Assembly (NCBI GenBank): GCA_913058165.1
Contig: CAJXQV010000017.1
Location: 1 to 11,685, forward strand
Reading direction: 5' to 3'
Source of the DNA: an uncultured Chromatiales bacterium
GTDB lineage: Bacteria > Pseudomonadota > Gammaproteobacteria > Steroidobacterales > GCA-2729495
Length of the DNA stretch: 11,685 nt
Shown here: positions 1-11,685 of the stretch, piece by piece
Position numbering within the stretch: the first letter of the stretch is position 1
Layout: each line of letters opens with the position of its first letter
Position numbers and translations under genes: made by a program
The notes under the pieces: model-generated
Told to the model about the DNA's origin: nothing
Databases searched by the model: none
Seen by the model: only the letters and a program-made list of their open reading frames with translations

Positions 1-170
1 CAGCCAAAGCTTATGGTGTTTACGCAAAGATCGTTGGTTTCGAGATGGCGAAGCGGCAGTCCTTTATCATCGACCCCGAAGGTAACATTGCCAAGCACTA
101 CGCCAAGGTCAATGCAGAAACGCACTCCACCGAAGTGCTCGCCGATCTAAAAGCCCTACAGGGAACCTGA
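1..170 (+). CDS. Peroxiredoxin, C-terminal fragment (5' end outside window)
   Basis: The reading frame is open from the window edge (first complete codon at position 3) to a TGA at 168-170, giving about 55 visible residues. The stretch RQSFIIDPEGNIAKHYAKV is typical of the C-terminal half of AhpC/TSA-type peroxiredoxins of the Bcp/PrxQ kind. The Arg of KRQSFIID (codon 54-56) fits the conserved active-site arginine that precedes the beta strand in this family. Such enzymes reduce hydrogen peroxide and organic hydroperoxides in the cytoplasm using a peroxidatic cysteine, which lies outside the window. The gene converges with the transporter gene on the other strand and has its own terminator. 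The family call is fairly secure; the subfamily (Bcp versus another 1-Cys or 2-Cys class) cannot be settled without the N-terminal half. Confidence 0.8.
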   Translation, partial: AKAYGVYAKIVGFEMAKRQSFIIDPEGNIAKHYAKVNAETHSTEVLADLKALQGT

Positions 171-196
171 GCCCTCAATTTATTCAGAATGCAGAG

Positions 197-225
197 CGGC
201 GGTGTGAATACACCGCCGTTTTTTT
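197..225 (+). terminator. Intrinsic terminator of the peroxiredoxin gene
   Basis: A perfect 9-bp GC-rich stem, CGGCGGTGT (197-205) with ACACCGCCG (210-218), encloses a GAAT tetraloop and is followed directly by seven T residues (219-225). It begins 26 bases after the peroxiredoxin stop. On the minus strand the hairpin is not followed by a T tract, so it is probably one-directional and does not terminate the convergent transporter operon. Confidence 0.95.
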
Positions 226-266
226 GTGGCCCGGGTTTTACGACCAGATACCTGAACACACAGAAG

Positions 267-1580
267 CTATTCCTTCAGCGGTGCTTTCTGGGTATCCATC
301 CGGGTGAACATTCGTCCAAGGTATCGGCCAACCACGCCCCAGAGTGCCGCGATACCTGCGCCCACGGCAGCCATTGCCCCCAAGCCAAGGCCCACACCAT
401 CGGTGAGGCCCGCAAACGCGATACTGCTCAATGCATCACCACCACGATACACCGCAATATCAATAACCGGCTTCGCCTTAAATCGAGTCTCGCGGTCTAC
501 TGCGGTAAACAACATTTCACGCGCAGGACGTGTAATCGCATAATTGCCCGCTCGACGAACTACTTGCAGAACCAGCACCACCGTCAACAAAGGCGCGAAA
601 GCCAGCACTAATAAACCAGCGGCAATAACGAACGGAACCAGCGCCAGCGTCACGGCCATACCAAAACGTTCAACAATACGACTCGTCGCGAACATACCGA
701 TGGTGAACGTCAGAATATTAACCACCCAATCAACCATAGCCAAAACTTCTGTGCGCTCCGCGCGGGTTTCAAAAAACTGCGCCAACAGGTTCTTCTGTTC
801 AAAATACACGAATGAACCAATGGCCGTATACAGCAGAATAAAAGCACCGATTGCCAACAAATACGGATTGGTCACAAACATTTTGAAGCCAGCAAACGGA
901 TTACCGCCAATCTTTGCAGCACTCAAGTCAGCATGCACAACCTCATTGTGTAAATCGACTACCTTCAGATGCTCGAGATACAGCACTATGCCGATTGGAA
1001 AAATAAGAACGACAGCGGCAATTAGCATCAAGGTATCGGTACCCAGATCATCGGCAAACAATGCCGGAATCAGCGGGCCAACCAAAGCTCCGGCACTTGA
1101 ACCCGCCGCAATAAACGCGAAGAGGCGATTCGACTGTTCCTTAGTGAACAAATCGGACATAAAGCTCCAGAACACGGAGACATGAAACAGACTAAAGACG
1201 CTCACCCAGACATAGAATATCTTATCGATAAGCACACGGTCTTCCACACCACTCACACCAAAATAAAATGCGACAAAAGATGCGGCAAAAAACGCATACA
1301 CCCCTGGAACCAAATACTTAAACTTCACTTTGGAAACGGCAAAGCCATAGATGGCGACAGCCACTACACTAACCAAAAAATTAATATTCCATAGAAAGCT
1401 AACCTCAGTGTCCGTCCACTCACTTGCCATAGCATCCCGCACTGGACGCAAAATGTACCAAGCCGCCATTAGGGTAAAGACCAAGGCAAATGCGAGCACC
1501 ACCGAGCGCAACTCGTTTGACTCGATTTGCGAAACTGTCTTCATGAAACGGGACACAAAGTTAGGTTGTTTTTTATTCAT
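267..1580 (-). CDS. NTP/NDP exchange transporter-family (ATP:ADP antiporter-like, MFS-type) membrane protein
   Basis: A 437-residue polytopic inner-membrane protein with roughly 11-12 hydrophobic segments (for example residues 27-45, 63-83, 122-140, 183-202, 240-262, 308-328, 383-405). WYILRPVRD (41-49), VWVSVFSLFHVSVFWSFMSDLF (124-145), a Gly/Ala-rich FIAAGSSAGALVGP segment (156-169) and KPVIDIAVYRGGD (370-382) are what I recognise from the bacterial group annotated as NTP/NDP exchange transporter or 'ATP:ADP antiporter, AAA family'. True members in intracellular parasites swap host ATP for ADP. Free-living bacteria carry relatives whose substrate is not known, so nucleotide transport here is only a family-based guess. 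It is the last gene of the minus-strand run, 69 bases after the SDR gene, and ends in TAG with no clear terminator. The ATG at 1578-1580 has only a weak GGA about 8 bases upstream; a second Met at residue 13 has no better ribosome site. Confidence 0.75.
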   Translation of the reverse strand: MNKKQPNFVSRFMKTVSQIESNELRSVVLAFALVFTLMAAWYILRPVRDAMASEWTDTEVSFLWNINFLVSVVAVAIYGFAVSKVKFKYLVPGVYAFFAASFVAFYFGVSGVEDRVLIDKIFYVWVSVFSLFHVSVFWSFMSDLFTKEQSNRLFAFIAAGSSAGALVGPLIPALFADDLGTDTLMLIAAVVLIFPIGIVLYLEHLKVVDLHNEVVHADLSAAKIGGNPFAGFKMFVTNPYLLAIGAFILLYTAIGSFVYFEQKNLLAQFFETRAERTEVLAMVDWVVNILTFTIGMFATSRIVERFGMAVTLALVPFVIAAGLLVLAFAPLLTVVLVLQVVRRAGNYAITRPAREMLFTAVDRETRFKAKPVIDIAVYRGGDALSSIAFAGLTDGVGLGLGAMAAVGAGIAALWGVVGRYLGRMFTRMDTQKAPLKE

Positions 1581-1610
1581 TTCAGTATCCGTAAGCAGAT
1601 AAATTGCTAC

Positions 1611-1625
1611 CCGGAACTATTCCGG
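1611..1625. repeat. Small hairpin between the SDR and transporter genes
   Basis: CCGGAA (1611-1616) pairs with TTCCGG (1620-1625) around a 3-base loop, inside the 69-base gap between the two genes. There is no T tract on either side in the minus-strand direction, so it is not an intrinsic terminator. It may simply be a stable spacer or an mRNA-processing site. A 6-bp stem of this kind can occur by chance. Confidence 0.35.
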
Positions 1626-1649
1626 ATAACGCTGCGAGAAAGGGTTTAA

Positions 1650-2438
1650 TTAATTAGCGGTGAGCGCGGCAAATAACGCCGGCCAATTACCGGAAGGTGT
1701 ACCGGATTCCGAATAAGCTTCAAAGGTTTTGTTGACTGCCTCCGGAGTCTGCAACGCGGCCACACAAATCATGGCAACGTCATCACGGGTAATCGTGCCG
1801 GAGGTAGTGTCGCCCTGCGCAAACACTATTTTATCCTGCCCCCCTGGCTTATTAACCAGACCACCAGGTCTTACGATGGTGTAAGGCACGCCGCTGGCAC
1901 GCAAGGCGTTCTCACCTTTCAACTTCCAGTTCAACACATTATCGAACATACGATTAAGAAAATGGTCTTCATCGGTAACGCCGGAAGATGACACCAAAAC
2001 AAACTGTTGAATATTAAGAGCGGCGGCAACATCAGCTAGATTACGCACCCCGCCAAAATCAACAAACTTGGGAGAGTTAGCAGGATCACCGCGGGTTGAA
2101 CCGATGGCCACAGCAACATAGCGGACACCGGACATTGCTTCGATTAACTGGTCAGGCTGACGGACATCAGCAACGACATAAGTGACATCATCCCCGAACA
2201 ACACACGCGCCTTCGTTTCATTGCGCACCATGGCACGGACTTCAAAGCCGTTACCAAGCAAATGTTTTACAACTTCTTTGCCGGTGCCGCCGGTAGCACC
2301 GGCAACCAGAACAAGCCCTTTCGACGATTCACCAGGCATTTTTTCCGCAGACGACTGCGCCTGTGCAGACAACAGCCCGATCAGGCTGAGGCACAGAACA
2401 CCGATCAAACGAAAAATAGAACGCGAAGAAGAACGCAT
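1650..2438 (-). CDS. Atypical SDR / NAD(P)-binding Rossmann-fold protein with N-terminal signal peptide
   Basis: From the chosen ATG (2436-2438) the protein has 262 residues. Residues 1-27 look like a Sec signal peptide: basic MRSSSRSIFR, a hydrophobic core LIGVLCLSLIGLL, then AQA before Q28. The mature part opens with a beta strand and the glycine-rich dinucleotide motif GATGGTG (47-53), followed by a VADV strand end (about 88-91), SSSG (150-153), a NWKLKGE helix (170-176) and YTIVRPGGL (186-194). This is the layout of atypical SDRs of the NAD(P)H-binding (NmrA-like) type; the classical YxxxK catalytic pair is absent, with only the Lys of NWKLK in the matching helix. The substrate is unknown. 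A longer frame exists from TTG at 2504, but it would bury the signal peptide; the ATG has AAAGGGT about 11 bases upstream. It lies 94 bases after pyk on the same strand. A cytoplasmic-type cofactor fold behind an export signal is odd. Confidence 0.8.
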   Translation of the reverse strand: MRSSSRSIFRLIGVLCLSLIGLLSAQAQSSAEKMPGESSKGLVLVAGATGGTGKEVVKHLLGNGFEVRAMVRNETKARVLFGDDVTYVVADVRQPDQLIEAMSGVRYVAVAIGSTRGDPANSPKFVDFGGVRNLADVAAALNIQQFVLVSSSGVTDEDHFLNRMFDNVLNWKLKGENALRASGVPYTIVRPGGLVNKPGGQDKIVFAQGDTTSGTITRDDVAMICVAALQTPEAVNKTFEAYSESGTPSGNWPALFAALTAN

Positions 2439-2532
2439 ATCAGCGTGTACCCTTTGAAAGCCCGAAACACGGATGCAAACAGGCATTAAATGTAAGTCAG
2501 ACAAGTATATCCGCAGCCACTGCAGACCGAGC

Positions 2533-4014
2533 CTAGTGGTCGGACTGCCCGTTGTGACTATTCACTGGCTGGTCACTGCCAGTGACACGAAGAATTTTCA
2601 TGGAATTGGTGCCGCCCGATATACCCGTCAAATCACCCTGCGTAAACACCAGCAAATCACCGGGGTCTACCTTATGCAGGTCTATGAGTTTGTTAAACAT
2701 ATCCTGATGAAGACGTTCGGTATTGGTATCGGTAATATCGAAATACACTGGATAGACACCCCGATACAACGTGACACGTCGTCGGGTATCTTTATGGCGG
2801 GTAAAGGCAAAAATAGGAATATCTGAGCGAATACGGGACATCCACCTTGCTGTCGAGCCCGATTCAGTTAACGCCACAATAGCAGCAACATCCATATGTG
2901 CCGTGGTGTGCATAACAGCCATAGCCACCGCCTCGTCGACATTCTGGAAGTGCTGGTCGCGACCCTTGCGGCGACCGGATACCAGGTCATGCGCTTCAGC
3001 ACCGAGACAAATCTCGGCCATAGCCGCCACAGCCTTAACCGGGAAATCGCCGACAGCCGATTCCGCAGATAACATAACCGCATCAGTACCATCCATTACC
3101 GCATTGGCGACATCGGATACTTCTGCACGGGTAGGAATCTGACTGTGAATCATCGACTCCATCATCTGAGTTGCTGTAATTACAACCTTATGCCGCGTGC
3201 GGGTGGTTTTAATAATGCGTTTCTGCAAACTCGTGAGTGATGCGTAACCCACCTCAACACCGAGGTCACCACGCGCTACCATTACTGCATCGCTCGCATC
3301 AATAATGCTCTCAAGATTGACAACAGCCTCACTGCGTTCGATTTTGGCCACCAGATGCGCTCCGCAACCGGCATCACGCAGCAAATCTCGTGCTTCGTCA
3401 ACGTCAGCCGCGGACCTGACAAATGACACTGCCATCCAATCGATTTCAAGCTCTGCGGCGAGCAATATATCAACGCGGTCTTTCTCAGTGAGCGCCGGAG
3501 CTGACAGACCGCCACCGTGCAAATTAATGCCCTTCTGATTACTTAGTTCGCCGCCAACCTGCACACGGCAAACAATGCGTGGCTTCTCAACTTTTTCGAC
3601 CAGCATCGAGATATGTCCGTCATCAAGCAACAGCACATTACCCGGATTCACATCATCGGTTAGATTCTCGTAGGCAACACCCACTCTGGTTTCGTCACCG
3701 GAATTTCCATCGAGACTGCTATCGAGAACAAACATCTGGCCTTCCGTCAGTTGGACACGGCCTTCCTTGAATCGACGAATACGGATTTTTGGCCCCTGCA
3801 GATCGCCCAAAATACCGATATGCTTACCCACCAAATGGGATGCTTCGCGAACCATTTTTACCCGTCGACGCTGCTCATCGGGATCACCATGAGAAAAGTT
3901 CAGTCTGAAGACATCGGCACCCGCACGGATGAGCTGCTCAACAACGCCCGCCTTGTCCGTCGCAGGACCGAGGGTCGCAATAATTTTGGTTCTTCGCATA
4001 GATTCATTAGTCAT
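2533..4014 (-). CDS. pyk: Pyruvate kinase
   Basis: Catalyses phosphoenolpyruvate plus ADP to pyruvate plus ATP, the last step of glycolysis, in the cytoplasm. The 493 residues match the family length. RRTKIIATLGPAT (7-19) opens the TIM barrel; RLNFSHG (37-43) and the GDLQGPKIR region (70-78) line the active site. The B domain runs from about residue 80 to 180. KIERSEA (224-230) holds the catalytic Lys, MVARGDLGVE (245-254) binds metal and substrate, and ATQMMESM (281-288) is the signature helix. ALTESGSTAR (381-390) lies in the C-terminal effector domain. The enzyme is probably the allosteric homotetramer usual for the family. The ATG at 4012-4014 is used, but its only nearby ribosome site is an AGG two bases away; the Met at residue 6 (3997-3999), right before RRTKII, is a possible alternative. 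The gene follows pgk after 111 bases and may have its own promoter. Confidence 0.97.
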   Translation of the reverse strand: MTNESMRRTKIIATLGPATDKAGVVEQLIRAGADVFRLNFSHGDPDEQRRRVKMVREASHLVGKHIGILGDLQGPKIRIRRFKEGRVQLTEGQMFVLDSSLDGNSGDETRVGVAYENLTDDVNPGNVLLLDDGHISMLVEKVEKPRIVCRVQVGGELSNQKGINLHGGGLSAPALTEKDRVDILLAAELEIDWMAVSFVRSAADVDEARDLLRDAGCGAHLVAKIERSEAVVNLESIIDASDAVMVARGDLGVEVGYASLTSLQKRIIKTTRTRHKVVITATQMMESMIHSQIPTRAEVSDVANAVMDGTDAVMLSAESAVGDFPVKAVAAMAEICLGAEAHDLVSGRRKGRDQHFQNVDEAVAMAVMHTTAHMDVAAIVALTESGSTARWMSRIRSDIPIFAFTRHKDTRRRVTLYRGVYPVYFDITDTNTERLHQDMFNKLIDLHKVDPGDLLVFTQGDLTGISGGTNSMKILRVTGSDQPVNSHNGQSDH

Positions 4015-4021
4015 AACCTAG

Positions 4022-4027
4022 ATTATC
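4022..4027 (-). promoter_or_regulatory. Possible -10 box immediately upstream of pyk
   Basis: On the minus strand GATAAT (5 of 6 to TATAAT) sits only 7 bases before the pyk ATG, in the 111-base gap after pgk. No good -35 hexamer lies 16-18 bases further upstream (GCAAAA or CAAAAT). If real, transcripts would start almost at the start codon and be nearly leaderless. This is a weak call. Confidence 0.25.
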
Positions 4028-4125
4028 CCACAATAGATATGTGATTTTGCAGCTCAATTAAAGCCGCAACACCGATTAGACGAATGAGCGGTTGTCACCC
4101 AGAATAGGCTCAACCGAAAACGCGA

Positions 4126-5286
4126 TTATTTAGCCCGCGACTCCAGAACCGCTACTGCCGGGAGCTTCTTGCCTTCCAGAAACTCAAGGAATGCGCCCCC
4201 ACCGGTTGAGATATACGACATTCTGTCACTCAGACCATATTTCTCAAGCGCCGCCAAAGTGTCACCGCCGCCAGCAATACTGAAAGCCTTGCTATTCGCA
4301 ATCGCCTCGCCAAGCGTCTTCGTGCCGTTACCAAACTGATCTATCTCAAACACACCAAGTGGACCGTTCCAGACAATAGTACCGGCATTGGCAATAATCT
4401 CAGCATAGAGCTCCGAAGTTTTCGGACCTACGTCAAGAATCATTTCATCTGTCTTGGTCTCGGTCAACTCACGTGGGATGGCCTCGGCATCCGCACTAAA
4501 TGCTGTCGCATTGACCACATCAAGGGGCAATGGAATTTTTGACTCAACAGTCAGCTTCTTCGCCTGCGGCAGCATAGTTTCTTCGTACAAAGATTTGCCG
4601 ACAGGGTAGCCTGCCGCTGCAATAAATGTATTGGCAATACCACCACCAACAATCATAGAATCGACATGCTTCGCAAGCTCTTCAAGAACAGTAAGCTTCG
4701 TCGATACCTTTGACCCGCCGACAATGGCAACAACTGGTCGGGCCGGTTTATCCATTGCCTTACCCAAAGCATCAAGCTCAGCGACCAGCAAGGGTCCGGC
4801 ACAGGCCACCGGAGCAAACTTTGCTACGCCATGAGTACTTGCCTGAGCACGATGTGCGGTGCCAAAAGCATCCATTACAAACACATCACAAAGCGCAGCC
4901 ATCCGCTTAGATAAAACCCCATCATCAGCGTTCTCACCAGCGTTAAAGCGTACGTTCTCACACAACACGACTTCACCGGGAGCCACATCAACGCCATTCA
5001 GCCAGTCGCTGACCAAACGGACGTCCTGATTCAACAGTACGCTGAGATGACGGGCGATAGGACTTAAAGAGAACTGCTCCTCAAACTGCCCTTCAGTCGG
5101 ACGACCAAGGTGAGAGAGCAGAATTACTGCAGCGCCTGCTTCCAGCGCTGCAGTAATAGTCGGCAGTGTCGCCTTGATCCGGGCATCGCTGGTAACGCGA
5201 CCGTCTTCAACCGGAACATTCAAATCCAATCGGATCATCGTCCGTTTTCCGGCAATATCCAACTCTGACATTTTCAACACTGACAT
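4126..5286 (-). CDS. pgk: Phosphoglycerate kinase
   Basis: Transfers phosphate between 1,3-bisphosphoglycerate and ADP, giving 3-phosphoglycerate and ATP; reversible and cytoplasmic. The 386 residues equal the typical monomeric bacterial enzyme. The N-terminal substrate domain shows RLDLNVP (19-25) and SHLGRP (58-63). The nucleotide domain shows GGSKVSTKL (190-198), GGGIANTF (214-221), WNGPLGVFE (306-314) and the phosphate-binding GGGDT (339-343). The ATG at 5284-5286 is preceded by AGGAAGAG (minus strand, 5295-5302) at 8 bases spacing, which supports this start over the Met at residue 6. Only 34 bases separate it from the upstream gap stop, so gap and pgk are almost certainly co-transcribed, coupling two consecutive glycolytic steps. 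Confidence 0.98.
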
Positions 5287-5320
5287 ACCTGTTGCTCTTC
5301 CTGTGGAAGCTTAACTGATG

Positions 5321-6334
5321 TTACTTGGCGTTAATGAGTGCCAAAGTGGTATCAAGCATACGATTTGAGAAGCCCCACTCGTTGTCATACCAAGAACACA
5401 CTTTAACCAGGTTGCCACCGAGCACTTTAGTCATGGTTGAATCGTAGGTTGAAGATGCAGGATTGTGGTTGTAATCAATCGACACAAGCGGCGCGTTGGT
5501 ATACCCCAGAACGCCTTTCAGCGGACCCTCACTTGCGGCTTTAAGAACCGAGTTAATTTCATCCACAGTGGTATCACGTGACGCAGTAAAGGTCAGATCA
5601 ACAACCGACACATTGATGATCGGCACGCGCATTGAGAAGCCGTCCAACTTGCCATCAAGCTCAGGCAAAACCATGCCAACTGCAGCAGCCGCACCGGTTT
5701 TGGTCGGAATCATCGACATAGTGGCTGAACGCGCACGACGCAGATCGGTGTGATACACGTCAGTCAGAACCTGATCGTTGGTGTAGGCATGAATCGTAGT
5801 CATGATGCCCTTCTCAATACCAATTGCTTCATGCAATGGCTTAACCAGAGGCGCGAGGCAGTTGGTGGTGCAGGAAGCATTTGAAATAACGGTATCAGAT
5901 GCTTTCAACAGCTTATGGTTAACGCCGTAAACAATAGTGGCATCAACCGCATTGCCCGCAGGTGCAGAAATAACGACTTTCTTGGCACCGGCATCAATGT
6001 GTGCCTGTGACTTTTCTTTGCTGGCAAAGAAGCCTGTGCACTCCAGCACTACATCAACACCAAGCTCACCCCAAGGCAGGTTGGCAGGATTGCGTTCAGC
6101 AAATACTTTAATGCGGTCGCCATTGATTACCAGCTCATCTCCCTCGACAGAGACATCAAAGCCGAACACGCCATGCGCGGTGTCGTACTTAGTCAGATGT
6201 GCGTTGGTATCGGCATTGCCCAGATCATTAATGGCCACGATCTGAAGTTCTTTGGTACGGTCACTCTCGTACAATGCACGCAGGACATTTCTACCGATAC
6301 GTCCGTAACCATTTATCGCGATTTTTACTGCCAT
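5321..6334 (-). CDS. gap: Type I glyceraldehyde-3-phosphate dehydrogenase
   Basis: Oxidises glyceraldehyde-3-phosphate with phosphate and NAD to 1,3-bisphosphoglycerate, in the cytoplasm as a homotetramer. The 337 residues are of normal length. [10 protein letters not shown] (7-16) is the dinucleotide-binding loop, and Asp37 in AINDL fits NAD rather than NADP preference. SNASCTTNC (151-159) carries the catalytic Cys155, and His182 in TIHAYTNDQ is the general base. KTGAAAAVG (212-220) and the C-terminal [12 protein letters not shown] are further family marks. The erythrose-4-phosphate dehydrogenase gene epd occupies this slot next to pgk in E. coli. The catalytic HAYTNDQ and TGAA segments look more like GAPDH than Epd (HSAMHDQQ), so I call it gap, with some chance of dual function. 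A strong AGGAG (minus strand, 6344-6348) lies 9 bases before the ATG. The distance to tkt is 98 bases. Confidence 0.93.
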
Positions 6335-6376
6335 TACTGCTTACTCCTATTGTTCTTCCGCAAGGCAAGCTTCCGC

Positions 6377-6382
6377 CTTATA
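6377..6382 (-). promoter_or_regulatory. gap: Candidate -10 box for a gap promoter
   Basis: In the 98-base tkt-gap spacer, the minus strand reads TATAAG (5 of 6 to consensus), about 43 bases before the gap start codon. The -35 side is poor (ATAATG or AATAAT at 17-18 bases). The palindrome at 6394-6410 falls inside the spacer and -35 zone, which would suit a regulated promoter. A secondary gap-pgk promoter inside the cluster is plausible but not proven. Confidence 0.35.
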
Positions 6383-6393
6383 AATAATCTGCA

Positions 6394-6410
6394 CGTGAAC
6401 ATTATTCACG
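6394..6410. promoter_or_regulatory. Palindrome upstream of gap, possible operator
   Basis: CGTGAA (6394-6399) and TTCACG (6405-6410) form a perfect 6-bp inverted repeat around 5 bases, between tkt and gap. It is one base too wide for the CRP consensus half-site spacing (TGTGA-N6-TCACA; here N7), and it does not look like the HexR or Cra sites known for glycolytic genes of gammaproteobacteria. It could be an operator for an unidentified regulator, or an mRNA hairpin in a tkt-gap read-through transcript. Confidence 0.4.
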
Positions 6411-6432
6411 AAACCATTTGTATCAATTTGCT

Positions 6433-8463
6433 CTATAACAATTCTTTAACAACGGACTTGACGTTATCCACGGTAAAACCGAACTTTTTAAACAGCTCGC
6501 CGGCCGGTGCTGATTCGCCAAAGCGGTCAAGGCCAATGACGCGTCCGGACATGCCAACATAGCGATACCAACCGTTGGTGACACCCGCCTCAACAGCAAC
6601 CCGCTTATCAAGCGCTGCTGGCAACACGGACTCGCGGTAAACAGCATCCTGAGCTTCAAAGGCTTCAACACAAGGCATAGAAACGACACGAACGCCAATC
6701 CCTTCAGCGGCTAATGCCGCAGCGGCGGCCACCGCAAGCTCAACTTCAGAACCGGTTGCAATGATCACAGCTTGTGCATCGTCCGCATCACACAATACGT
6801 AGCCACCCCGACGAATATCGTCAAGCTGCTGGGCATTGCGTGCCTGTGGGGCCAGGCCCTGACGCGACAAAATCAAACTGGTCGGACCATCACGACGCTC
6901 GATGGCATCCTGCCATGCCACCGCTGTTTCAGTAGTATCACACGGACGCCAAACCGCCATGTTCGGCATCAGGCGCAAGCTTGCTACATGCTCAACCGGC
7001 TGATGTGTAGGACCATCTTCACCCAGTCCAATAGAGTCATGAGTAAACACAAGAATATTCTGCACCTTCATGAGCGCCGCCATGCGCAACGCATTGCGGG
7101 CGTAATCAGAGAAGGTCAGGAAGGTGCCGCCGTAAGGAATAAAACCACCGTGCAAAACCATACCATTAAGCATTGCAGCCATACCGAACTCACGCACACC
7201 AAATGAAATATAGTTGGCATCGGCATCATCGCCGGTAAGCCACTTGGAGCCGGAATGTTCGGTGAGGTTAGAGCCGGTCAGATCAGCAGAACCACCGATC
7301 AACTCAGGCAGGTGCGGGGCAAACGCATTCAAACTAATCTGCGATGCTTTGCGGGTTGCATTCTTCGCATCGGATGTCGCAATTTTGGCAATCTCTTCCG
7401 CAACGGCTTCGGGCCACCCAGCCGGCAATTCACCGGACATGCGTCGCTGCAGTTCTGCTGCTAATTCAGGGAACGCACTCTGATAAGCCGCAAAACCCTC
7501 GTTCCAAGCAGCCTCTGCAGCAGCACCGCTGCTGCGTGCATCCCATGCGGCACAGATCTCGGCGGGTATTTCAAACGGTGCATAGGGCCAGTCCAGCGCT
7601 TCACGGGTAGCCGCAATTTCGGCATCACCCAAGGGCGCACCGTGAGTGGCTTCGGTGCCCTGCTTGTTCGGCGAACCGAAACCAATAATGGTTTTGCAAC
7701 AAATCAGACTTGGCTTATTAGATGCCAGAGCCTTATCAATAGCTGCCTGAAGCGCTTTAGGGTCGTGCCCGTCAACACCGGGAACCACATGCCAACCATA
7801 AGCTTCGAAACGGGCGGGCGTATCATCGGTAAACCAGCCGTCAACGTCACCGTCAATTGAAATGCCGTTGTCGTCGTAAAAACAAATTAACTTGCCCAGC
7901 TTTAAGGTGCCGGCGAGTGAGCAGGCTTCGTGCGAAATACCTTCCATCAAACAACCGTCACCGAGGAATACCCAAGTGCGATGGTCAATGACATCGTGAC
8001 CCGGGCGATTAAACTGAGCCGCGAGAACCTTCTCGGCAACGGCCATACCAACAGCATTGGTCAGGCCCTGACCCAAGGGCCCGGTGGTTGTTTCAATGCC
8101 AATCTCAGGCTCATACTCAGGATGACCTGCGGTGCGGGAGCCCAGCTGGCGGAAGTTTTTGATCTCATCCATTGTCAACGGGTAGCCGCTCAGATGCGAC
8201 AGCGCGTACAACAACATTGACCCATGCCCATTGGAAAGCACAAAGCGATCCCGATTAATCCACAATGGATTCATAGGGTTATGGGTCATATAGTCGTTCC
8301 AGAGCACCTCAGCGATATCAGCCATACCCATCGGGGCTCCGGGATGACCGGAATTTGCTGCCTGCACTGCGTCCATAGCAAGAGCACGTATCGCGTTAGC
8401 AAGGTCTCTACGAGAAGGGTACACACCCTCGGTGTTGTTGCGGGTCTTTGAATTTACAGCCAT
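6433..8463 (-). CDS. tkt: Transketolase
   Basis: Thiamine-diphosphate enzyme of the non-oxidative pentose phosphate pathway; moves two-carbon ketol units between sugar phosphates and links xylulose-5-phosphate to glyceraldehyde-3-phosphate and fructose-6-phosphate. It has 676 residues, about 14 more than E. coli TktA, all at the N-terminus. SGHPGAPMG (38-46) includes an active-site His. The ThDP/Mg motif runs from GDG (168-170) to DDN (197-199). HGAPLGD (274-280), the catalytic Glu425 in GVREFGMAA (422-430), and [15 protein letters not shown] (475-489) complete the site; the C-terminal domain shows [10 protein letters not shown] (568-577). The ATG at 8461-8463 has an A-rich leader without a Shine-Dalgarno sequence. 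A GTG at 8422-8424 would give a family-typical N-terminus, but its GAGG is only 2 bases away. It heads the minus-strand glycolytic run. Confidence 0.97.
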
Positions 8464-8741
8464 TTTTTATCGTTTTTATAGTTAGGGGCCGGAGGGCCGG
8501 ATAACGGGCGCGCATTGTCGCCTACCTGTGCTCGGGTGGCAATACAAGCAAGCCGCGAGCCAAACAGATTGGGCATTGATGAACACCAATCGCCGAATTA
8601 TGCAGGCAAATTGTCCACTGGATGCGCTCAAGTACGCAAAGTCTGTTCCGGAGACACCCACATCACCACTAAAGTCACACTAGCAGCGCTAAGTGCGCTT
8701 ATAATCCTCGCCTGCTTAATTATCAGGAAACGAAATTAGCT
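8464..8741. promoter_or_regulatory. Divergent regulatory region between tkt and metK
   Basis: This 278-base spacer must hold the promoters of both outward-facing operons. On the metK side there is a consensus TATAAT at 8700-8705. On the tkt side the minus strand has a TATAAA just upstream of the start codon and, beyond it, a short GGCC-rich hairpin (about 8487-8500), with no convincing -35. A 6-bp inverted repeat, GATTGG (8567-8572) with CCAATC (8586-8591), lies mid-region and may be chance. I see no riboswitch-like conserved core and no credible small gene. Confidence 0.6.
8685..8705 (+). promoter_or_regulatory. metK: metK promoter -10 box with abutting palindrome
   Basis: TATAAT at 8700-8705 is a perfect sigma-70 -10 hexamer, 36 bases before the metK ATG, implying a leader of roughly 30 bases. 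No strong -35 lies at 16-18 bases (ACACTA or similar). Directly before the -10, AGCGC (8685-8689) and GCGCT (8695-8699) form a 5-bp inverted repeat around TAAGT, placed where a repressor would block polymerase. The ribosome site is AGGAAA at 8725-8730, 11 bases before the start. Confidence 0.55.
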
Positions 8742-9896
8742 ATGGCAAACAACTACCAATTTACGTCCGAGTCCGTGTCTGAAGGTCATCCGGACAAAAT
8801 GGCCGACCAGATATCCGATGCAGTACTGGATGCTGTTATTGCGCATGACGCCGACGCCCGTGTGGCGGTAGAAACCGTGGTTAAAACGGGTTTCGTGATG
8901 CTGGCAGGCGAACTCACCACATCAGCCCCAACCAATTTCGAACGACTGGTTCGGGATGTAGTGCTCGATATTGGCTACAACAGCTCCGACATGGGCTTTG
9001 ATGGCGAATCCTGTGCGGTTCTTAATGCCATTGGCGCGCAATCGCCGGATATCGCTCAAGGTGTTGACCGCGGTGACCCGCGTGAACAGGGTGCCGGCGA
9101 TCAGGGCCTCATGTTCGGTTATGCCAGTAATGAAACCGACGTCTTAATGCCTGCAGCCATTTCACTGTCTCATCAGCTGGTTAAGCGCCAGGCCGACGTC
9201 CGCAAATCGGGTGAACTGCCGTGGTTGCGTCCGGATGCAAAGAGTCAGGTCACACTGAACTATGTTGACGGCAAACCGGTAGGTATCGATGCCGTGGTGC
9301 TTTCGACTCAGCACAACCCTGAAATCAGTCAGGAAGCGCTGCGCGAAGCTGTAATGGATATCATTATTAAGCCGATCCTGCCTGCTGAATGGCTTAACGC
9401 AGACACCAAATACCACATCAATCCAACCGGCAAGTTCGTTATCGGTGGCCCAGTTGGTGACTGCGGTCTGACCGGACGAAAAATTATTGTCGACACCTAT
9501 GGCGGCATGGCCCGTCATGGTGGCGGTGCATTCTCAGGTAAAGATCCGTCTAAGGTTGACCGCTCAGCCGCCTATGCAGGCCGCTACGTTGCAAAAAACA
9601 TTGTCGCAGCAGGTCTGGCAGAACGTTGCGAAGTTCAGCTTTCCTATGCCATTGGTGTTGTCCAACCAACATCTATCAGCGTCGAAACTTTCGGCACGGG
9701 TAAAGTCGATCATGAAACCTTGACTAAGCTCATCCGTGAACACTTCGACCTTACACCTTACGGTATCCGCGAAATGCTTGACCTTCGCCGCCCGATTTAT
9801 CGCGCCACAGCAGCTTACGGTCACTTTGGCCGTAAAGATGTCGAATTCTCATGGGAGAAAACCGACAAAGCTGAAGCACTTAAAGCCAGCGTTTAA
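8742..9896 (+). CDS. metK: S-adenosylmethionine synthetase
   Basis: Makes S-adenosylmethionine from methionine and ATP, releasing phosphate and pyrophosphate; cytoplasmic, usually a homotetramer using Mg and K ions. The 384 residues equal the E. coli enzyme. SEGHPDK (13-19) carries the catalytic His16 and metal-binding Asp18. [11 protein letters not shown] (117-127) is the adenosine-contacting signature hexapeptide region. GGGAFSGKD (260-268) is the P-loop-like phosphate signature. The C-terminal [16 protein letters not shown] is family-typical. ahcY follows after 29 bases on the same strand, so the two form an operon covering synthesis of the methyl donor and removal of its by-product. No long leader is available for a SAM-type riboswitch downstream of the predicted promoter. 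Confidence 0.98.
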
Positions 9897-9925
9897 GCGC
9901 GGCTGTTACTAGGAGAACATATATC

Positions 9926-11341
9926 ATGAGTACCGAAGCAGCCGTAGTGCTGAAAGATTATCTCGTCGCCGATATCACACTCGCCGACTTTGGTCGTAAA
10001 GAAATCCGCATCGCCGAAACTGAAATGCCGGGACTGATGCAGATTCGCAAAGAATACGCTGGCAAAAAACCGCTAGCCGGTTCCCGCATCATGGGTTCTT
10101 TGCATATGACCATTCAAACCGCCGTGTTGATTGAAACATTGGTTGAACTGGGTGCAGAAGTTCGCTGGGTTTCCTGCAACATCTTCTCAACTCAGGATCA
10201 CGCAGCAGCAGCGATTGCGGCTTCGGGCGTGCCCGTATTTGCCTATAAAGGCGAGACTCTGGATGAGTACTGGGAATACACCCATCGCGCCATGGAATGG
10301 TCTGACGGTGGCGTGCCTAACCGTATTCTAGATGACGGTGGCGATGCTACTCTGCTGTTAATTCTCGGTGCCAAAGCCGAAATTGACCCGTCGATTCTTG
10401 ACAATCCGGGCAGCGAAGAAGAAGTTGCGCTGTTCAAGTCTATGAAACACCATCTGGCAAATCATCCTGGCTGGTACACCACCCGTCGAGATGCGATTGG
10501 CGGCGTTACCGAAGAAACTACCACCGGTGTGCAGCGTTTGTATCAAATGCAGCAAGCCGGCGACCTGCCCTTCCCTGCCATCAACGTTAACGACTCAGTA
10601 ACCAAATCAAAATTCGACAACCTTTACGGTTGCCGCGAGTCATTGGTCGATGGCATCAAGCGCGCTACTGACGTCATGATTGCCGGCAAGATTGCGATCG
10701 TTGCCGGCTACGGTGACGTGGGCAAAGGTTGTGCGCAGTCACTGAAAGGTCTGGGTGCCACAGTATGGGTTACCGAAATCGATCCGATCTGCGCTTTGCA
10801 GGCGGCGATGGAAGGCTTCCGCATTGTGACTATGGAAGAAGCCGCACCGATTGCGAATATTTTCGTCACCACCACCGGCAACTTTAATGTCATCACCCAT
10901 GACCACATGGCTGCGATGAGAAATCAGGCTATTGTTTGCAATATCGGTCACTTCGACAATGAAATTGAAGTGGCTTCTTTGCAGAAGTACGAATGGGAAA
11001 ATATTAAGCCACAGGTTGATCACATCATCTTCCCGGACGGTAAACGCATCATCCTGCTGGCCGAAGGTCGCTTGGTGAATCTGGGTTGCGGAACAGGTCA
11101 CCCCAGCTTCGTGATGTCCAACTCGTTCACCAACCAGGTGATGGCACAGATCGAATTGTGGGAGAGCCCGGATAACTACCAGAATGAAGTTTACGTGCTG
11201 CCCAAGCATCTCGATGAGAAGGTCGCACGTTTGCATCTGGAGCAGCTGGGCGTTCACCTCACCGAGCTGACAGACGCTCAAGCGAAGTACATTGACGTTC
11301 CGACAGAAGGCCCTTACAAACCTGCGCACTATCGCTATTAA
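9926..11341 (+). CDS. ahcY: S-adenosylhomocysteine hydrolase
   Basis: Reversibly splits S-adenosylhomocysteine into adenosine and homocysteine using a tightly bound NAD, relieving product inhibition of methyltransferases; cytoplasmic homotetramer. The 471 residues fit the long bacterial form, which has an insert relative to the roughly 430-residue animal enzyme (about residues 148-192 here, including [13 protein letters not shown]). [13 protein letters not shown] (84-96) and [17 protein letters not shown] (224-240) line the substrate site. GYGDVGKG (261-268) is the Rossmann NAD motif. [11 protein letters not shown] (391-401) and the terminal KPAHYRY (465-471), which reaches into the partner subunit's cofactor site, are family marks. 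AGGAG at 9911-9915 lies 10 bases before the ATG. It ends the metK operon, with a terminator 26 bases downstream. The 29-base gap after metK leaves no room for the SAH riboswitch that precedes ahcY in some proteobacteria. Confidence 0.98.
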
Positions 11342-11366
11342 GCCGGTCGTCACCAGCAAGCCCCTG

Positions 11367-11392
11367 AAAAAGCCCTCCCCGGAGGGCTTTTT
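11367..11392 (+). terminator. Intrinsic terminator of the metK-ahcY operon
   Basis: AAAAAGCCCTC (11367-11377) pairs perfectly with GAGGGCTTTTT (11382-11392) around CCCG, an 11-bp stem whose 3' arm ends in five T residues. The matching A run on the 5' side means it could also work on the minus strand, though no minus-strand gene is seen upstream of it in the window. Confidence 0.93.
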
Positions 11393-11532
11393 CTTGCCCT
11401 AAATACAGTATTTCCGGACGCCAGCAGCGATAATCATGTGATGCAGGTCAGAGTTTAAAAAAGGCAAACCCACTATAGTTATGAAACTCACTCGACCTTA
11501 AATCCGCATGGCTAAAGCACACTCGGCAGAGC

Positions 11533-11643
11533 ATGAACGAACAGGTTATAAAACTCGCTCAGATCACTGACCCGCATTTGCATGCTCATAAAGATGCACG
11601 CATGCGCGGCGTCAACACCTGCAACACGCTAAAGGCAGTATTG
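11533..11643 (+). CDS. cpdA: CpdA-like 3',5'-cyclic-AMP phosphodiesterase, N-terminal fragment
   Basis: Thirty-seven codons from an ATG at 11533-11535, cut off by foreign adapter sequence. The residues LAQITDPHLHAHKD (8-21) match the first metallophosphoesterase motif (D-x-H): Asp13 and His15 would bind the dinuclear metal centre. RMRGVNTCNTLKAVL (23-37) resembles the LLGVNTxxSxxAVL segment after that motif in CpdA/Icc proteins, which hydrolyse cyclic AMP to AMP and so temper CRP-dependent regulation. GGCAGAG sits just upstream as a rather close, weak ribosome site. A TATAGT at 11474-11479 is a possible -10 box. The gene lies beyond the ahcY terminator and is probably its own unit. The frame stays open through the adapter, so 14 further codons are artefact. 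The family call is good; the exact subfamily is uncertain from 37 residues. Confidence 0.75.
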
Positions 11644-11685
11644 CTGTCTCTTATACACATCTCCGAGCCCACGAGACAAGAGGCA
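11644..11685 (+). other. Illumina Nextera transposase adapter plus index (non-genomic)
   Basis: The last 42 bases divide exactly into CTGTCTCTTATACACATCT (11644-11662, reverse complement of the Tn5 mosaic end), CCGAGCCCACGAGAC (11663-11677, the Nextera read-2 side adapter) and AAGAGGCA (11678-11685), which equals the Nextera i7 index commonly labelled N711. This is sequencing-library read-through left at a contig end. It is not part of the organism's DNA. Confidence 0.97.

Follow-up and report, generated by a model that had tools for sequence, protein, structure and literature searches.

Nextera adapter and sample index, rather than a transposon, at the end of a bacterial contig and at most contig ends surveyed in its assembly

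The window analyzed here, a stretch of DNA of 11,685 nucleotides, closes with 42 bases that begin with a mosaic end, a sequence derived from Tn5, which raises the question of whether the contig runs into a mobile element or into material left over from library construction. A whole-assembly comparison revealed that contig C17 and the window are one and the same sequence, so that position 11685 is a true contig end. On the plus strand, positions 11644-11685 consist of CTGTCTCTTATACACATCT, CCGAGCCCACGAGAC, and AAGAGGCA, the first two matching the mosaic end and i7 arm of Nextera without a mismatch. The 19-base mosaic end (11644-11662), exact and unique in the window, reads outward into the adapter; it is followed by the 15-base i7-side (read-2) adapter arm (11663-11677) and by an 8-base i7 sample index (11678-11685) that closes the contig. 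This agrees with the preliminary description, which had placed the mosaic end, read-2 arm, and index back to back and free of mismatches to the last base. The 34-mer formed by the first two parts, CTGTCTCTTATACACATCTCCGAGCCCACGAGAC (11644-11677, plus strand), is the sole exact match on both strands of the window, compared with 0.00 expected from 200 dinucleotide shuffles, and the 19-base mosaic end gave a single match in the window with up to three mismatches tolerated. The order of mosaic end, i7 arm, index, and P7 is what we take to be the layout of an Illumina Nextera/Nextera XT library construct. All 42 bases agree with this construct, in order and orientation too, and no difference was found, the tail merely stopping after the index. 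Positions 11644-11685 are thus sequencing adapter and sample barcode, an artefact and not DNA of the organism. The Nextera adapter strings are printed in PMC6460022, on an oil-in-seawater metagenome project that gives them in its prinseq settings.

The genomic part of the contig spans positions 1-11643. No adapter tail reaching 13 bases stands at the left end of the window, where just 3 bases, CAG, match the adapter, which is at the level of chance. No Rfam family was detected in the window at the gathering threshold, and a simple scan of 11300-11685 found no promoter or terminator. An open reading frame on the plus strand crosses the junction with the adapter; its first 37 codons (11533-11643) are the true 5' part of a calcineurin-like phosphoesterase gene cut at the genomic end, while the 14 codons that follow (11644-11685) are a false 3' extension, LSLIHISEPTRQEA, translated from adapter and index. 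Searching the assembly with 11534-11643 disclosed a second contig, C116, whose first 69 bases overlap 11575-11643 with 67/69 identities. Past the position of 11643, C116 has different bases and its frame stays open, reading RRIMTGSRRPDAV where the window has LSLIHISEPTRQEA. The genomic sequence of the window therefore stops at 11643. The preliminary description had held that an overlapping contig carrying the same bases past this point would speak against an adapter; C116 presents the opposite, with different and genomic bases.

The product of C116 matched Pfam Metallophos (PF00149, E=1.1e-14), while the 51-aa piece from the window alone matched no Pfam family; its N-terminal sequence suggests that the last gene of the window is cpdA-like. 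A protein search with the 51-aa ORF returned one match at E<=10 among two candidates (P0002, 73 aa), a homologue without the adapter tail that reads QRIKTGSRRPDAI where the window enters LSLIHIS. P0002, which continues in much the way that C116 does, supports the true continuation of the gene and gives no sign of database contamination. Both mismatches in the 69-base overlap are synonymous, which suggests two strains in the sample and not sequencing error; C116 may be another strain's copy.

If the adapter marked a chimeric join or misassembly, the contig end could also be wrong upstream of 11643, and the imperfect overlap with C116 (67/69) is in keeping with such an error. C116 nevertheless backs the last 69 genomic bases together with their reading frame, and the order of metK, S-adenosylhomocysteine hydrolase, and the start of the phosphoesterase (names by inspection) continues without a visible break. 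We consider a faulty genomic end very improbable.

The preliminary description had anticipated that other contigs of the same project would bear the same tails, and the assembly (345 contigs, 1,687,400 bases, estimated to be 72.74% complete) is rich in them. It holds 372 exact mosaic ends (186 forward and 186 reverse), 147 full 42-mers ending in AAGAGGCA (72 and 75 by strand), and 136 copies of the mosaic end joined to the i5 arm (75 and 61 by strand). The proposed scan of other contig ends was carried out on C1 to C120, the window included, corresponding to 120 of the 345 contigs and 240 ends. Tails of at least 19 adapter bases were present at 195/240 ends (190 exact and 5 with one mismatch), and shorter tails of 13 or 15 bases at 5 further ends. 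Long tails occurred at both ends of 79 contigs, at one end of 37, and at neither end of 4. The tails sit at the contig ends and point outward. None of the 194 exact mosaic ends in the 120 contigs lay more than 60 bases from a contig end, and no adapter 16-mer was found more than 80 bases inside any of them. Following these 194 mosaic ends were the i7 arm (82 full and 21 partial), the i5 arm (73 full and 17 partial), and one other sequence. Most of the contig ends surveyed thus bear adapter, a commonplace technical artefact to be trimmed off.

Where the tails of the 120 contigs are long enough to include an index, 70/71 show AAGAGGCA on the i7 side and 56/57 show TCTACTCT (as read) on the i5 side, the exception in each case being one base off. 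This near uniformity indicates that one barcode pair marks one library. Both arms, with one index per side, are present in these contigs, and one tail reaches P7 and AAAA, in agreement with the Nextera/Nextera XT construct. We take AAGAGGCA to be the N711 index, presumably included in the Nextera i7 set as well, and TCTACTCT as read to be N/S504. The name of the former comes from PMC7589761, whose Appendix B prints AAGAGGCA as the index of primer N711-A, a primer that bears a different arm.

One end of C106 deserves separate mention. Its left end (L360) is one of the 40 ends that our rule classed as untailed, the mosaic end being missing; genomic sequence passes instead into the arm, AAGAGGCA, the whole of P7, and AAAA. 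This is the appearance of a read that ran past the end of a library molecule.

To evaluate the junctions themselves, we compared the nine genomic bases adjoining the mosaic end at 200 tailed ends with 2000 control sites further inside the contigs, ten per end. The bases at the junctions were biased toward G at -9, Y at -6, W at -5, R at -4, and C at -1. The mean match to GNTYWRANC over its 7 fixed positions was 3.60 at the 200 junctions versus 2.51 at the 2000 controls, and 2.98 of 7 at the 40 untailed ends. The insert adjoining the adapter therefore carries a Tn5 target bias, as looked for in a Nextera library. The junction 9-mer of the window matches 3 of 7 positions, between the control mean of 2.51 and the junction mean of 3.60, and alone says nothing. 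The wild-type Tn5 consensus A-GNTYWRANC-T is cited in PMC8224930, which also gives a similar motif, GTNYWRNAC, for its two tested kits. A splitting of contigs in pairs at single tagmentation events was considered and rejected, as no pair of the 200 tailed ends had a 9-base abutting overlap, a comparison made between contig ends and not between the two flanks of one element. One pair of tailed ends shares 10 bases; a shifted control yielded one of 16.

The target bias and the Tn5 origin of the mosaic end would also be expected of a real Tn5/IS50-type element, or its scar, inserted at this genomic site. The mosaic end is followed, however, by a synthetic arm and a sample index, it is terminal to the contig, and the same index recurs at many ends, while none of the 120 contigs has an internal copy. 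The 34-mer is also missing from 39 relatives in the family, and the site is uninterrupted in C116. Together, the end-only tails in 120 contigs, the uninterrupted C116, and the missing 34-mer led us to reject such an element, the chance of which we regard as negligible. Looking for PF02281, the Tn5 transposase domain, we obtained 0 matches in the assembly; none of 14 control genomes was matched either. The view in the preliminary description that the tail is library construct and not a transposon is upheld by the arm and single index, the outward direction at contig ends, and the uninterrupted sequence of C116. Equally negligible is the sequencing of a Tn5 mutant library or of a cloned or engineered construct, with mosaic ends in the sample DNA itself; mosaic ends are used in Tn5-based mutagenesis too, but sequencing arms and i7/i5 indices, and once P7 with AAAA, are present in the tails, which are confined to the ends in 120 contigs.

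The tail is almost certainly adapter read-through that persisted in the assembly. In the proposed sequence of events, loaded Tn5 transposase would cut community DNA and join the mosaic end with an i7 or i5 arm to the fragment ends, and PCR would then add the index and P5/P7. Where fragments were shorter than the read, reads would pass the far end and continue through the mosaic end and arm to the index and P7. If such reads were un- or incompletely adapter-trimmed, the assembler could carry genomic paths past the junction and into adapter, to be halted where adapter sequence was shared or coverage became thin. Short inserts, untrimmed reads, and graph assembly are an established route to adapter tails, and we infer that short inserts and missing trimming caused the tails here. 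The source was probably a metagenome. How the assembler came to stop within the adapter may be reflected in the tail lengths of the 120 contigs, which spread from 13 to 54 bases with a peak at 46-50; this distribution suggests that it halted inside sequence common to adapter-bearing reads.

The occurrence of the 34-mer elsewhere is in line with adapter read-through. Among 40 genomes of the family it was found in one, the window's own, and among 398 genomes of the phylum in two, the window's own and one other, whose only copy is close to the start of a contig; it is therefore not a feature of the lineage. Public collections contain it at no fewer than 118 genome-contig loci and at least 120 viral-contig loci. 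Among the matches listed, the distance from the 34-mer to the end of the locus was 42 bases or less at 116/118 genome loci and 47 bases or less at 118/120 viral loci, the exceptions being L043, L062, L207, and L262. An index tally, drawn from 80 listed loci of the at least 118 genome loci, comprised 55 loci from SRR3933xxx runs. Twenty of these runs had a full index, and all 14 having two or more showed one index each, which confirms the 8 bases as sample barcodes. Public MAGs named after the SRR3933xxx runs thus resemble our assembly, with the same 34-mer near contig ends and one index per run. They differ in that their tails carry mostly other indices, with AAGAGGCA in none of the 20 runs with a full index. 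Within the at least 118 genome loci, AAGAGGCA was found at two, L040 (run SRR9109402) and L146. A limited literature search found no papers on adapter tails in deposited assemblies.

Two of these public loci carry the adapter within a record. At L207 (IMGVR_UViG_2767802081_000001), a viral contig of 9.7 kb holds the 34-base adapter midway along its length (4953-4986), and the next bases are neither index nor P7; this contig may be a chimera, joined across adapter. At L062 (JAOAJQ010000047.1, 3926-3976), the adapter and an 8-base index stand beside a run of 9 N inside the contig record, adapter having apparently entered a scaffolding gap.

The tail is an artefact with no biological novelty, and its consequences concern data hygiene only; with foreign bases on about four of five ends in the 120 contigs, its value is as a warning about trimming and provenance. 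The mosaic end could pass for Tn5 in mobile-element searches. A stop-free frame of 100 codons or longer enters the tail at 78 of the 195 ends whose tails measure at least 19 bases, and at 61 of the 78 it is open to the contig end. Gene callers could consequently tack adapter peptides such as LSLIHISEPTR, VSYTHLRAHE, and CLLYTSPSPRD onto real proteins. The one protein search made, with the 51-aa window ORF, found no database protein bearing an adapter peptide, and LSLIHISEPTR and pieces of VSYTHLRAHE and CLLYTSPSPRD were not found in the literature searched. In our estimation, the chances are even that the i7/i5 pair at the contig ends can serve as an in-assembly provenance tag, by which a deposited MAG could be matched to its library and foreign contigs flagged by index mismatch without recourse to the reads; if this reading is true, a large part of the contig breaks of the assembly would fall at Tn5 cutting sites.

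Overlaps between tailed ends were also observed apart from that of the window with C116, namely between C41 and C69 (56-57 bases) and between C83 and C117 (35 bases), with one mismatch each, and a few contig breaks might therefore close after trimming. The remaining matches of tailed ends fall within contig interiors and resemble repeats or paralogues. Elsewhere in the window, inspection of the ORFs revealed genes for transketolase, GAPDH, phosphoglycerate kinase, and pyruvate kinase on the minus strand (2533-8463), adjoined on the plus strand by those for metK and S-adenosylhomocysteine hydrolase (8742-11341).
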